Notes under the pieces: generated by a model
Told to the model about the DNA's origin: nothing
Database searches by the model: none
Seen by the model: the letters and a program-made list of their open reading frames with translations, nothing else
Translations under genes and position numbers: made by a program
In this document: positions 6,925-51,938 of the stretch, one piece after another
How the letters are laid out: each line of letters begins with the position of its first letter
Numbering within the stretch: position 1 is the first letter of the stretch
From: Niveispirillum lacus
Lineage (GTDB): Bacteria > Pseudomonadota > Alphaproteobacteria > Azospirillales > Azospirillaceae
Length of the DNA stretch: 64,000 nt
Assembly: GCF_002251795.1 (NCBI RefSeq)
Contig: NZ_NOXU01000025.1
Span: forward strand, 124,001 to 188,000
Reading direction: 5' to 3'

Positions 6925-8496
6925 ATGTCGGCCGCCCCCTCCTCCGCTTCCCCCGCCTGGGCGGTCGAACTTGTCGGCATCGACAAGCGATTCGGCCCGG
7001 TCCATGCCAACCGCGACGTGACGCTGCGTTTCGCCCCCTCCAGCATTCATGGGCTGGTGGGGGAGAACGGGGCCGGCAAGTCCACCTTGATGAGCATTCT
7101 GTACGGCTTCTATGAGGCGGATGCCGGAGAGATTCTGGTTCGCGGCAAGCAGGTTGATATCCGCACACCTCAGGATGCGATCCGCCTGGGCATTGGCATG
7201 GTACATCAGCATTTCATGCTGGTAGAGACCTTCACCGTTCTGGAAAACCTCCTGCTGGGACATGAGGGCGGACCGGTCCTGGGTCCCGCCATGGCCCGTG
7301 CGCGAACCGAAGTACAGGCGCTGGAACAGCAGTTCGGACTGGAGGTGCCGCTGGACGCGCTGGTCTGCGACCTGCCCGTCGGCGTGCAACAGCGCGTGGA
7401 GATTCTGAAGGCGCTCTATCGCGGGGCCGACGTGCTGATCCTGGACGAACCGACGGCCGTTCTGTCCCCGCCAGAGGTGGAGCAGTTGTTCCGCATTCTG
7501 GAACGGCTGCGCCAGCAGGGGCGTACCGTCCTGCTGATTACCCACAAACTGAAAGAGATTATGGCCATCACCGACCGGGTGTCGGTGCTACGCCGGGGTC
7601 AAGTGGTTGCGGAGTTTGTCACTGCCGAAACCGACCGTCAGGCCCTGGCCGATGCCATGGTGGGGCGCAAGACCTCGCTGTCGGTGGATAAGGCACCCGC
7701 GAAACCCGGCCCGGTCTTGTTGGCGGCACAGAACCTGAATGTCGTCGATGCGCGCGGGGTCACGACGCTGAAGGATGCCTGCCTGACCGTACGGGCCGGC
7801 GAGATTGTGGGCATCGCCGGGGTAGCCGGCAATGGTCAGTCAGAGTTACTGGAAGTTCTGTCCGGCATGTGCCGTTTCGTTAGCGGAACGGTTACGCTGA
7901 AGGGTGAAGATATCGGTCCAGCCACTCAATATGACGCGGCCGATGCCCGCCGCCGGGGCGTTGCCCATGTACCGGAAGACCGGCTGAAGCTGGCCGTGAT
8001 CAAGGACTTTCCGGCCCATGAAAGTGCTATCCTGGGGTACCACCAGGATAAATCTTTGTCCAAGGGCTGGCGGCTGGATTGGAAGCGCACCATTGCCAAG
8101 ACTGTTTCGTTAATGGAACAATTTGACGTACGCCCACCCAACCCTAATTTGCGCACTGCATTGTTTTCGGGCGGCAATCAGCAGAAGCTGGTCATGGCCC
8201 GCGAGATGGAACGGGAGCCGGATATCCTGCTGGTGGGACAGCCGACACGCGGTGTCGATATCGGCGCGATCGCGTTCATTCACCGTCAGCTTGTGTCGCT
8301 TCGCGACCGGGGCAAGGCCATCCTGCTGGTCTCGGCAGAGTTGGATGAGATACTGGCCCTATCCGACCGTATTCTGGTGATGTGCGATGGTGAGATCGTA
8401 GGCGAACTGTCGGCGGCAGAGGCGACAGAGGGCCGGATCGGGACGATGATGGCGGGCATTAAGGACAGCCCGACCGCTGAAGGGGTTTCGGCATGA
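6925..8496 (+). CDS. Nucleoside-type ABC transporter ATP-binding protein (two fused ATPase domains)
   Basis: This 523-aa protein carries two ATPase domains. The first has an intact Walker A (GENGAGKST), a signature-like LPVGVQQRVEILKAL and Walker B (LILDEPTAVLSP). The second has a degenerate Walker A (GVAGNGQSE) but a strong signature (FSGGNQQKLVMARE) and a Walker-B-like LLVGQPTRGVDIG. This asymmetry is the rule in sugar/nucleoside importers of the RbsA/NupO type. It energises uptake through the two permeases encoded next. The stop overlaps the start of the next gene by 4 bp (ATGA), indicating translational coupling. Confidence 0.93.
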   Translation: MSAAPSSASPAWAVELVGIDKRFGPVHANRDVTLRFAPSSIHGLVGENGAGKSTLMSILYGFYEADAGEILVRGKQVDIRTPQDAIRLGIGMVHQHFMLVETFTVLENLLLGHEGGPVLGPAMARARTEVQALEQQFGLEVPLDALVCDLPVGVQQRVEILKALYRGADVLILDEPTAVLSPPEVEQLFRILERLRQQGRTVLLITHKLKEIMAITDRVSVLRRGQVVAEFVTAETDRQALADAMVGRKTSLSVDKAPAKPGPVLLAAQNLNVVDARGVTTLKDACLTVRAGEIVGIAGVAGNGQSELLEVLSGMCRFVSGTVTLKGEDIGPATQYDAADARRRGVAHVPEDRLKLAVIKDFPAHESAILGYHQDKSLSKGWRLDWKRTIAKTVSLMEQFDVRPPNPNLRTALFSGGNQQKLVMAREMEREPDILLVGQPTRGVDIGAIAFIHRQLVSLRDRGKAILLVSAELDEILALSDRILVMCDGEIVGELSAAEATEGRIGTMMAGIKDSPTAEGVSA

Positions 8497-21297: not shown

Positions 21298-22425
21298 ATG
21301 CCAAAGCAACTGACACTGCCCATCTCCAACGATCCGGGTAACGTAATCGACCACGACGCGTCACCGGAAACCATCATCGAACTGGCAAAGGAAGTCGCCG
21401 AAGTGTCGGCGGTGCGCACCAGTGCCATTGGCGATATCACCCGGCGGACCAAGATCCTGGCGCTCAATGCCAAGATAGAGGCCGCGCGCGCCGGCATTCA
21501 TGGTGCTGGCTTCGGTGTGGTCGCGGCGGAGGTGCAAAACATCTCTTCTGAGATTGACCTTGCCGCGAACCGTATGCGTGATGAAATCGTCGGCAGCGCC
21601 ACCCGTTTGCACCAGTTGGGGCAGGGGCTGGTCGGGTCCATGCGTGGACAGCGTCTAGCAGACCTTGCACTGAACATGATCGATATCATCGACCGCAACC
21701 TTTATGAACGATCCTGTGATGTGCGGTGGTGGGCGACCGACAGCGCCGTCGTGGATGCGTTAGAACATCCCGGTACCGTAACGGCTGACCATGCCGGTCA
21801 ACGGATGGGCACCATCCTGAAATCCTACACGGTCTATCTCGACATCTGGATCGCCGATGCACAGGGGAAGGTGATCGCCAATGGCCGTGCCGACCGGTAC
21901 CCTGTCGCAGGTCGATCAGTCGCCCAGGAAAGCTGGTTCCGCGATGCCATGGCGACACGCGATGGCACGGAATTCAGCGTCGCTGATGTCGCTCCGCATG
22001 ACGGGCTGAACGGTCAGCCGGTGGCCATCTATGCCACGGCCATCCGGGCGGGCGGGGCCGAAAACGGGGCGCCCCTGGGGGTGCTGGGCATCTTCTTTGA
22101 TTGGGCACCACAGGCCGGGGCGGTGGTAAAATCGGTCCGCCTGACAGAAGAGGAACGGTTGGAAAACCGGACCAAATGCCTGATCGTCGACAGCAATTTC
22201 CGTGTAATCGCGGCCAGCGACGAACGGTATCTGATGATTGGCCGTTACCCGTTGCAGACCGGTGGCAAGGATATGGGTTATTATCAGGCCGGTGACGGTA
22301 CCCTGGTAGCCTTTGCCCTGACCCCTGGCTATGAGACCTACAAGGGGCTGGGCTGGTACGGATTGATCCTGCAACGCCCACCAGAGGTTGAAGCTGCGTG
22401 GAATGCGCGGCACGGTCACGCCTGA
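21298..22425 (+). CDS. Soluble MCP-like/Cache-like sensor protein with reversed domain order
   Basis: This 375-aa protein has no membrane helix. Residues of about 25-110 resemble the MCP signalling hairpin (ILALNAKIEAARAGIHGAGF, then GVVAAEVQNIS). The remainder, after the linker RNLYERSCDVRWWATD, looks like a double Cache-type sensor (VYLDIWIADAQGKVIANGRA, then DSNFRVIAASDERYLMIGRY). Chemoreceptors normally place the sensor first, outside the membrane, and the signalling hairpin last; here the order is reversed and all is cytoplasmic. The start is uncertain: GTG 21289 or ATG 21298, neither with a good ribosome site. It may dock onto chemotaxis arrays or other MCPs; no che genes are nearby. 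Target and ligand unknown. Confidence 0.72.
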   Translation: MPKQLTLPISNDPGNVIDHDASPETIIELAKEVAEVSAVRTSAIGDITRRTKILALNAKIEAARAGIHGAGFGVVAAEVQNISSEIDLAANRMRDEIVGSATRLHQLGQGLVGSMRGQRLADLALNMIDIIDRNLYERSCDVRWWATDSAVVDALEHPGTVTADHAGQRMGTILKSYTVYLDIWIADAQGKVIANGRADRYPVAGRSVAQESWFRDAMATRDGTEFSVADVAPHDGLNGQPVAIYATAIRAGGAENGAPLGVLGIFFDWAPQAGAVVKSVRLTEEERLENRTKCLIVDSNFRVIAASDERYLMIGRYPLQTGGKDMGYYQAGDGTLVAFALTPGYETYKGLGWYGLILQRPPEVEAAWNARHGHA

Positions 22426-49958: not shown

Positions 49959-51938
49959 TCACGCGGCTGCCAGCACCGGTGCCGTTGCCTCATCCAGGCG
50001 AAACTGGACCCGCAGGACACCATTCTCCGTGCTGACGGTACGCCCCCGCAGGGAGCCGCAACTCAGTCCCATCAACACCACCTCATCCCCTGGGTCCACC
50101 GAAAGGGTTGTGCGGATGGCCGCCCCGGCCGCTGACAGATCAGTGATACGCCCCGGTTGACGCCCGCCCCTTGGCCCCGACAGTTCGACGGCCAGATCAA
50201 CAATCCGGCGTTCATAGGCGCGGCGTTCACCGGCCCTGTCCATGGCTGACAGGAAATCCTCCACCTCCTGGCGCAACTGTTCGGCCTGTTCAGACAGTTC
50301 CCCGGCCGCGGCGTGCAACTGTGACGAAGCCGAAAGGGTGAACTGCGCACCCTCACGCACCGCGCCAATGCTTTCCGATACCTCGCCCGTGCGCCGCGCC
50401 GCTTCATGAACGTTACGGCTGATCTCGGCGGTTGCGGCCTCCTGTTGGTTAACCGCACCGGCAATCGCGCTCGAATTCCGACCGATATTATCAATAATGT
50501 CGGCAATGGTCGCAATCATACCAGCGGCATCGTCGGCCGCTTCTTTGACCGCCCGGGCCTGGGTGCTGATATCCTCCGTGGCCCGCGCCGTCTGTCCGGA
50601 CAGGTTCTTGACCTCGCTGGCCACGACGGCAAAACCCTTGCCGGCCTCGCCGGCACGGGCGGCCTCAATCGTAGCGTTCAGGGCCAGAAGATTTGTCTGG
50701 CTGGCAATCTCACTGATCAGGCTTACAACACCCTGCACATTGGCCACAACCGCTGACAATTCGCCGACAACCCGTCGGGCATTGTGGGCCTTTTCCACAG
50801 CTTCAGCGGTAATCCGGCCGGTAATGCCCACCTGCCGACCGATCTCTGCGCTGGACGCGGACAGTTCCTCGGTCGCAGCCGCGACGGTCTGTGCATTGTC
50901 GCGGGCAACCTGGGCGCTGTCGGCAACAGTGGTGGACTGGTGTCCCGTCATTTCCGCCTGCTGCTGCAACCCGCCGGATGTCGCCTCCAACTCGGTCGCT
51001 GCCGCCGCCACCGTGCGCAGTTTACCCGCCACCGCTAACTTGAAGTCGCGGGTCAGCACCTCCAGCGCGGCGCGGCGGCGTTCCTTGGCCTCCTCCTCCC
51101 GCTGCTTGTCCTCCTCCAGCGCGCGGGCGCGCAGGGCATTCTCGCGGAAAATGGCGATCGCACCGGCCATGGCGCCAATCTCATTGGTGACCTTGGCATC
51201 AGGCACCTCGACTTCCAGTTTTCCCGCCGCCAGATCCCGCATAACATTGGTCAGGGCCGACAAGGGGCGGGCCAGGGTCCGAGCCACGGCACTGGCACAG
51301 GCCGCCGATAGGCCCCCCAACACGATCACTGCAATTATCTGGATCAACAGCATCTGCCGATGTTTACGGCCTACATCATCCAGATAGACCCCGGACCCGA
51401 TGACCCAGTTCCATTCCGGGACCAGCATGACAAAGGAGATTTTGTCCACCGGCTCGTCAAAACCGGGTTTGGGCCATTTATAAGGCACAAAACCCGCCTT
51501 GTCAGGACCGGTTGCCACCCGGACCATATCGCGGAACATCAGCGTTCCCGCCGGGTCCTTGAAGTCTGACATGTCCTTGCCATCCAGGTCGGCCTTGATC
51601 GGATGCATGACCATTCGATGGGCAGTGTCATTGACCCAGACATACTCGCCATCAAAACGCATCGCCTTCACAGCCGCCAGCGCACGGGCCTGGGCTTCTG
51701 CCCGGCTCAGGGTTCCAGCCTGTTCCTGGGCGGCATAGGATGTGACGATACCCCTGGCCGCCGTCGCTGCCGCCTGAGCACTGCTGTTATAGCGTTCCTG
51801 GAGCTGTGTATATTGCTGCTCACTGGTCAGGGCCGCAAACGCCATCAGACCAATTAGCAAGATCATGACAATCAAACCCAGCCGGGTTGAGATAGCACTA
51901 TTATGAAACCACTGCGAAATATTCACCAACCACACCAT
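49959..51938 (-). CDS. Methyl-accepting chemotaxis protein with C-terminal PilZ domain
   Basis: A 659-aa chemoreceptor. N-terminal membrane helix ([18 protein letters not shown]), a periplasmic single Cache-type sensor ([20 protein letters not shown]), a second helix ([18 protein letters not shown]), HAMP, and the signalling hairpin ([38 protein letters not shown]). After it, residues 570-655 form a PilZ domain with the c-di-GMP motif RxxxR (about 573-577) and DxSxxG (about 600-605, DLSAAG). The fusion would let c-di-GMP tune chemotaxis. No CheB/CheR pentapeptide tail is seen. Confidence 0.93.

Follow-up and report, generated by a model that had tools for sequence, protein, structure and literature searches.

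A soluble Niveispirillum lacus protein with a minimal chemoreceptor tip ahead of a predicted dCache domain is a candidate cytoplasmic chemoreceptor of inverted design

Gene, domain order and soluble character

Within the window, which is the whole 64,000-nucleotide stretch of Niveispirillum lacus DNA analyzed here (from a genome designated G000, 4.97 Mb in 31 contigs), we focused on a single gene (Table 1) that is flanked by ccoG, on the minus strand, and by a glycosyltransferase/rfb cluster. Pfam placed a match to MCPsignal (PF00015) at residues 26-97 of its product (E = 3.6e-15; 56.7 bits, above the cut-off of 34.6) and a match to dCache_1 at residues 141-307 (E = 4.9e-9; 36.5 bits, below the Pfam cut-off of 45); a paralog in the same genome clears the dCache_1 cut-off with 46.6 bits. 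The MCPsignal match covers profile positions 25-95 of 172, and the MCP tip (approximately residues 23-104) runs directly into the dCache domain (approximately residues 105-361). Many homologous frames begin at the equivalent of residue 21-22. A second MCP gene lies in the window at 50577-50771 on the minus strand, in an open frame of 671 codons (L008), and elsewhere in the same genome a 122-codon frame (L171:1927-2292; G000:C14:505028-505264) encodes little beyond an MCP signaling hairpin.

The Kyte-Doolittle hydropathy of the protein (19-residue mean) peaks at 1.23, arguing that it lacks a membrane segment. Over 111 family segments, taken from approximately residue 21 onward, the maximum was at most 1.79, and among 17 other MCPs encoded in this genome, 15 reached at least 2.2; by this measure, no membrane segment was detected in the window protein or in the 111 family segments. 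The placement typical of dCache_1, extracytoplasmic and between two membrane helices, was not found in the window protein by hydropathy, and a membrane-bound or exported Cache domain was rejected because a hydrophobic segment is absent by hydropathy. These results bear out the original prediction of a soluble protein in which the MCP part precedes the Cache domain, is reduced to one hairpin tip, and is encoded by a gene lying alone between cco and polysaccharide genes.

Table 1. Features of the gene and open reading frames of double-Cache relatives
Feature	Coordinates	Strand	Basis
Whole gene	21298..22425	+	ATG at 21298, stop at 22423-22425; 375 aa plus stop
N-terminal extension, residues 1-20 (low confidence)	21298..21357	+	pLDDT 40-45; homolog starts
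N-helix of the MCP hairpin, residues 23-65	21364..21492	+	Pfam, alignment, hairpin model
Hairpin turn, residues 66-71	21493..21510	+	Ungapped match of residues 21-135 to Tsr 345-459
C-helix of the MCP hairpin, residues 72-104	21511..21609	+	Alignment, model; F72, V75 and A76 invariant in 48 sequences
Long first Cache helix, residues 105-148, continuing the MCP C-helix	21610..21741	+	Helix H23-145; dCache crystal structure matches start at 103-115
Family signature RNLYERSCDVRWWATD, residues 133-148	21694..21741	+	12/16 positions invariant in 48 sequences
dCache body, two PAS-like subdomains, residues 149-361	21742..22380	+	Pfam, model, fold comparison
C-terminal helix and tail, residues 362-375	22381..22422	+	Model
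Double-Cache ORFs	L166:2829-5468, L165:3909-6494, L202:1368-3980, L203:1989-4556 and 16 further		

The MCP hairpin tip and the dCache domain

When residues 21-135 were modeled separately (46 sequences; pLDDT 91), the best fold match was 3g67 (chain B; Z 11.3, 1.9 Å over 115 residues), which we take to be Tm14 of Thermotoga maritima, followed by the Escherichia coli core signaling unit (6s1k, chain E; Z 11.1, 1.6 Å over 97 residues) and Tsr (1qu7, chain B; Z 10.7, 2.1 Å over 115 residues, ungapped on residues 345-459). Unrelated helical hairpins, e.g., ESCRT-III, also reach Z 10-11, so that Z alone discriminates weakly, and it is the Pfam match and the Foldseek E-values that separate the MCP rows: 16 of these had E ≤1.6e-3, while the next row was at 0.11. 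DSSP assigned an unbroken helix to both models (H23-145 for the full-length protein and H3-114 for residues 21-135), and the ungapped matches at 1.6-2.1 Å to both arms of MCP hairpins support that the shorter model folds back. The N-helix begins approximately 43 residues ahead of the turn, and the C-helix extends as the first Cache helix. Fold similarity to the MCP tip, the lack of which was to count against the original prediction, is present in the matches to Tsr, 3g67, and 6s1k.

In the register given by the Tsr alignment, window residue n corresponds to Tsr residue n+324. Eight residues in the hairpin (L54, N57, A58, E61, R64, F72, V75, and A76) are invariant in 48 aligned sequences. Of these, N57, E61, and R64, present in the window protein and in 48/48 sequences, align with Tsr N381, E385, and R388, which we assume to be tip contact residues; a literature search on MCP tip residues returned nothing. 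When the comparison was extended to 127 distinct frames, E61 was replaced in two, by T or V, and R64 in three, all from one genus, by H, so that the two residues are intact in 125 and 124 frames, respectively; the members with E61 changed to V or T, or R64 to H, are L132 and L135, and L139, L143, and L147. The positions of Tsr Q374 and N376 are R50 and K52 in the window protein (R-T-K). Q and N at these positions occur in all 18 other MCPs of the same genome that were compared, and the family has Q in 8/48 and N in 3/48 sequences. Accordingly, the Q-T-N triplet that commonly precedes L-L-A-L-N-A in MCPs, a frequent feature and no strict criterion, is replaced in most family members by E/R/Q-T-K/R/T. 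One family member (L109:2244-3281) has a hairpin turn two residues shorter, and two genomes of one genus encode divergent MCP-Cache proteins (L163:3500-4561 and L164:3569-4609) in which the tip has the canonical T-N-L-L-A-L-N-A and the junction motif is weaker. The Tsr methylation sites are presumably at 297-311 and 493/502. By the Tsr offset, 297-311 precede residue 1, and 493/502 fall at residues 169/178, inside the Cache domain, which argues that the adaptation region is missing.

The full-length AlphaFold2 model (47 sequences; mean pLDDT 87) predicts a dCache fold for the C-terminal half, in line with the Cache-type domain proposed originally. Residues 105-366 matched DctB of Vibrio cholerae (3by9, chain B) with Z 21.7 and an rmsd of 2.4 over 220 residues, and numerous dCache domains from chemoreceptors scored Z 17-19; the top fold row was an integrative model of McpB, with Z 22.3 but an rmsd of 4.6. 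Within the Cache body, Y177, Y180, G190, F267, W269, Q272, Y345, and W353 are invariant in 48 sequences. In dCache receptors for amino acids, a basic residue presumably lies two positions before the W of the distal pocket motif (R126 of PctA and K149 of Tlp3); position 211, placed by the register of a weak Tlp3 profile match (E = 0.02), is E in 21, A in 9, and Q in 7 of 48 sequences and never R or K.

Distribution, gene neighborhood and chemotaxis genes

A search for this architecture across bacteria, proposed together with the original prediction, recovered a family in Pseudomonadota. Scanning species genomes yielded 126 candidate stretches, of which 100 were confirmed and 80 loci kept. The Cache part is carried by 29 of 59 relatives, and a profile of it matched at least 35 of 398 sampled Pseudomonadota genomes at E 1e-10, with at most six candidates scored per genome. 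In 30 of these 35 genomes, the Cache domain is preceded by an MCP-type tip (24 assigned by motif and 6 by eye; the frame in L153 shows the second half of the hairpin only), and the other five have a double-Cache relative. Among 113 homologous ORFs, which include some genes met via two collections, the alignment begins no later than query residue 30 and ends no earlier than residue 350 in 112, supporting that the architecture is not due to chance. After selection at <80% identity and exclusion of a few rows, 47 homologs spanning alpha-, beta-, and gammaproteobacteria remained; 45 of these share 46-69% identity with the window protein, and the remaining two share 92% and 39%. Mean column identity is 53% in the 48 aligned sequences, and the junction RNLYER..DVRWWATD is nearly invariant across the family. 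The second copy in the N. lacus genome is 55% identical, and Hyphomicrobiales bacterium UR115 has a tandem pair of family genes (L093:5145-6293 and 7228-8487).

Several candidate matches were set aside. In L113, a 700-aa "fusion" seems to be an artefact of assembly, in which a run of N is followed by an apparent glycyl-tRNA synthetase frame; a 1336-aa open frame of G438 contains an 862-aa ORF when counted from the first start codon; and a 1717-aa frame in L168 is antisense to che genes. A phage origin was also rejected, as the matches in eight records were to the MCP tip only, with none covering 80%, and phrog_8572 covers residues 18-124 only. In the tree, L094, labeled as an Akkermansia metagenome-assembled genome, clusters with Cupriavidus, and L109 and L112 fall among Pseudomonadota without a resolved placement; the other-phylum labels of these three are likely binning errors.

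The gene neighborhood is not conserved over the family: no family other than MCPsignal was present in more than two of 88 adjacent ORFs scanned against Pfam, which gave MCPsignal in three (one of them added by hand), GGDEF in one, and EAL in one. Neither ccoG nor ccoH lies beside a relative among the loci examined. GT2 and rfb genes adjoin the family gene in close relatives (L051/L022 and L053/L025), and in a Pandoraea locus (L085), rfb genes lie 1.4-4 kb away on the opposite strand. In G223, the family gene and cheA are oriented divergently within a CheR-CheB-CheW-CheA cluster, with 436 bp between the frame starts. At six loci (five labeled Azospirillum and one, L062, labeled Roseomonas), it follows 166-245 bp behind a gene for a soluble MCP of 463-467 codons with a C-terminal extension of its own. 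The extension of these upstream MCPs (L060:4405-5793, L063:4404-5792, and those in L062, L065, L067, and L070) reads CRNRRIFNDRVGL...GRHWGGLR and has no Pfam name. On two Methylobacterium plasmids, the family gene precedes a co-directional gene for an EAL (L218) or a GGDEF (L221) protein; in L218, more diguanylate cyclase/phosphodiesterase genes lie behind the EAL gene, and in L221, three other genes annotated as MCPs lie within 7 kb. Outside these cases, the family gene is an orphan. Using a consensus that we assumed for FliA-type promoters, no enrichment was detected upstream of 39 beta-/gammaproteobacterial loci; the score was in the top 3% of its own controls in only three of the 39 (L088, L096, and L101).

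CheA (PF02895) is encoded in all 35 genomes with a match to the Cache profile, compared to 301 of 398 genomes sampled overall. The hypergeometric probability, ignoring descent, is 3.4e-5 by genome and 0.005 by genus (20/20 versus 166/213), and CheA is present anyway in most of the sampled Pseudomonadota. The most distant strong matches are soluble-looking double-Cache ORFs, 856-1038 codons long (Table 1). Of 21 such ORFs examined, 20 have two Cache stretches, while that in L217 is short and broken; among 60 relatives of G445, 17 have Cache matches of the same kind. A C-terminal CheW domain (PF01584) scored above its cut-off in 14 of the 15 double-Cache ORFs scanned against Pfam (4/5 and 10/10; L161 is the exception), and none of these 15 had an MCP match. 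The second Cache domain of L166 and L165 contains the junction D-R-N-L-Y-E-R-A-N-D-C-R-W-W, which is similar to the junction in the window family. A tree of 83 Cache stretches separates first Cache, second Cache, and MCP-type rows into three sets, the joins of which are unsure given long branches. Together, the family with an MCP tip and the relatives ending in CheW suggest that two different adaptors link one Cache class to chemotaxis proteins.

Proposed function and alternative explanations

Based on the sequence comparisons and structural models, we consider the window protein to be probably a cytoplasmic chemoreceptor of inverted design, which would insert into a CheA/CheW array via its tip and sense an internal metabolite. 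The protein would act as a homodimer, in which the hairpins pair into the usual four-helix tip and the Cache domains pair through their first helices. The tip would join trimers of receptor dimers and contact CheW and the P5 domain of CheA, either in the main array under the membrane receptors or in a cytoplasmic array; with approximately 45 residues per hairpin arm, the molecule may be short enough to fit below membrane receptors, and the pair of Cache domains would take the position of the flexible bundle on the hairpin. Since only the N-terminal Cache helix is joined to the output, ligand binding would have to act through this helix: a cytosolic metabolite in the Cache domain would shift the packing of the two first helices and, through the tip, alter CheA activity. 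The absence of the methylation helices implies that the protein would not be subject to CheR/CheB adaptation and would provide a non-adapting metabolic bias, adaptation being left to neighboring receptors. The original prediction had offered insertion into arrays and the feeding of other signaling as alternatives. The former has gained support from the predicted tip fold, the conserved residues, the co-occurrence with CheA, the che cluster of G223, and the CheW-fused relatives, while the latter keeps the EAL and GGDEF cases in Methylobacterium.

More tentatively, and with slightly less than even confidence, the family and its relatives may represent a class of intracellular dCache proteins marked by an NL(Y/F)ER...D junction helix, which is plugged into chemotaxis arrays in two ways (a minimal MCP tip in front or CheW behind a pair), is methylation-free, and gives its output through the N-terminal helix, opposite to the direction in membrane dCache receptors. 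Cache is regarded as the extracellular counterpart of PAS, from which the signal leaves by the C-terminal helix. If the proposal is correct, a conserved cytosolic dCache domain with N-terminal-helix output would offer a soluble, membrane-free system for studying dCache signaling with purified parts, and a receptor tip alone, with neither HAMP nor methylation region, could feed a chemotaxis array. Among the proteins annotated as "methyl-accepting chemotaxis protein", a group that probably cannot be methylated would likewise be set apart.

Cytoplasmic chemoreceptors, dCache receptors, and CheW-fused sensors are each well known. Tm14, the best fold match, is likewise soluble with the same MCP tip, as is YfmS (9a72), another cytoplasmic MCP with an MCP hairpin. 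Tm14 and other cytoplasmic MCPs, including TlpD, McpY, TlpT, and HemAT, possess hairpins of full length and either no sensor or one of the PAS, globin, or CZB type, whereas the window protein has a tip-only hairpin with a dCache sensor behind it. The dCache fold is shared with the transmembrane receptors Tlp3, PctA, Mlp24, and McpX and the kinase DctB (Z 17-22), in which the Cache domain is extracytoplasmic with output by the C-terminal helix, in contrast to the window protein with its N-terminal-helix output and no membrane segment. Upadhyay et al. (2016, PMC4822843) describe Cache families as principally extracellular, with Diacid_rec and YkuI_C as exceptions, and have the Cache signal of membrane receptors exit by the C-terminal helix. 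The double-Cache-CheW relatives resemble in kind CheWS of Treponema denticola, an intracellular sensor tied to the array (PMC10653840); the sensor of CheWS is a CheR-like SAM-binding domain, and the window protein has an MCP tip instead of CheW. That study counts 30 undescribed CheW architectures, among which the double-Cache-CheW architecture may be included, and the term "Cache" is absent from its main text (PMC10653840). MtpA of Methylobacterium aquaticum 22A is a cytosolic MCP without membrane segments that is linked to metabolism (formaldehyde taxis); its authors detected an MCP signal domain only, and it is set beside the window family here by its description alone (PMC10613068). Two further papers bear only loosely on the MCP-tip/dCache architecture (PMC8694187 and PMC10904736). 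Neither an intracellular dCache domain behind a tip-only MCP hairpin nor double-Cache-CheW proteins were found described in the literature searched, outside which many subscription papers lie.

An unlikely alternative to a place in the array, although the most probable of those considered, is that the MCP-like hairpin drives c-di-GMP enzymes or another non-chemotaxis output by direct contact, with the Cache domain sensing a metabolite. The MCP-like BdlA of Pseudomonas is an example of such control. The EAL and GGDEF genes next to the two Methylobacterium copies agree with this alternative, as do the altered Q-T-N triplet and the loss of E61 or R64 in 5/127 frames; the window protein itself retains both residues. 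Against it, these two genes are the only ones of their kind among the 88 adjacent ORFs scanned, the GGDEF locus also has its three other MCP genes nearby, and CheA is present in every genome with a Cache match, in addition to which there are relatives fused to CheW. It appears somewhat less probable still that the protein modulates the array, its tip occupying places of receptor trimers or CheW and thereby tuning array size or sensitivity, while the Cache domain mainly serves as a dimerization or switch module. A hairpin reduced to the protein-contact region, without methylation helices and with a changed flank of the tip, would suit such a role, but the invariant residues throughout the Cache body suggest ligand binding or a strict signaling geometry. 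Finally, the short MCP part and the orphan position could indicate a decayed, functionless fragment of an ordinary receptor, which we regard as very improbable and as largely refuted by sequence conservation, given an open frame, the 46-69% identity retained by nearly all homologs across three classes of proteobacteria, and the second copy in the same genome.
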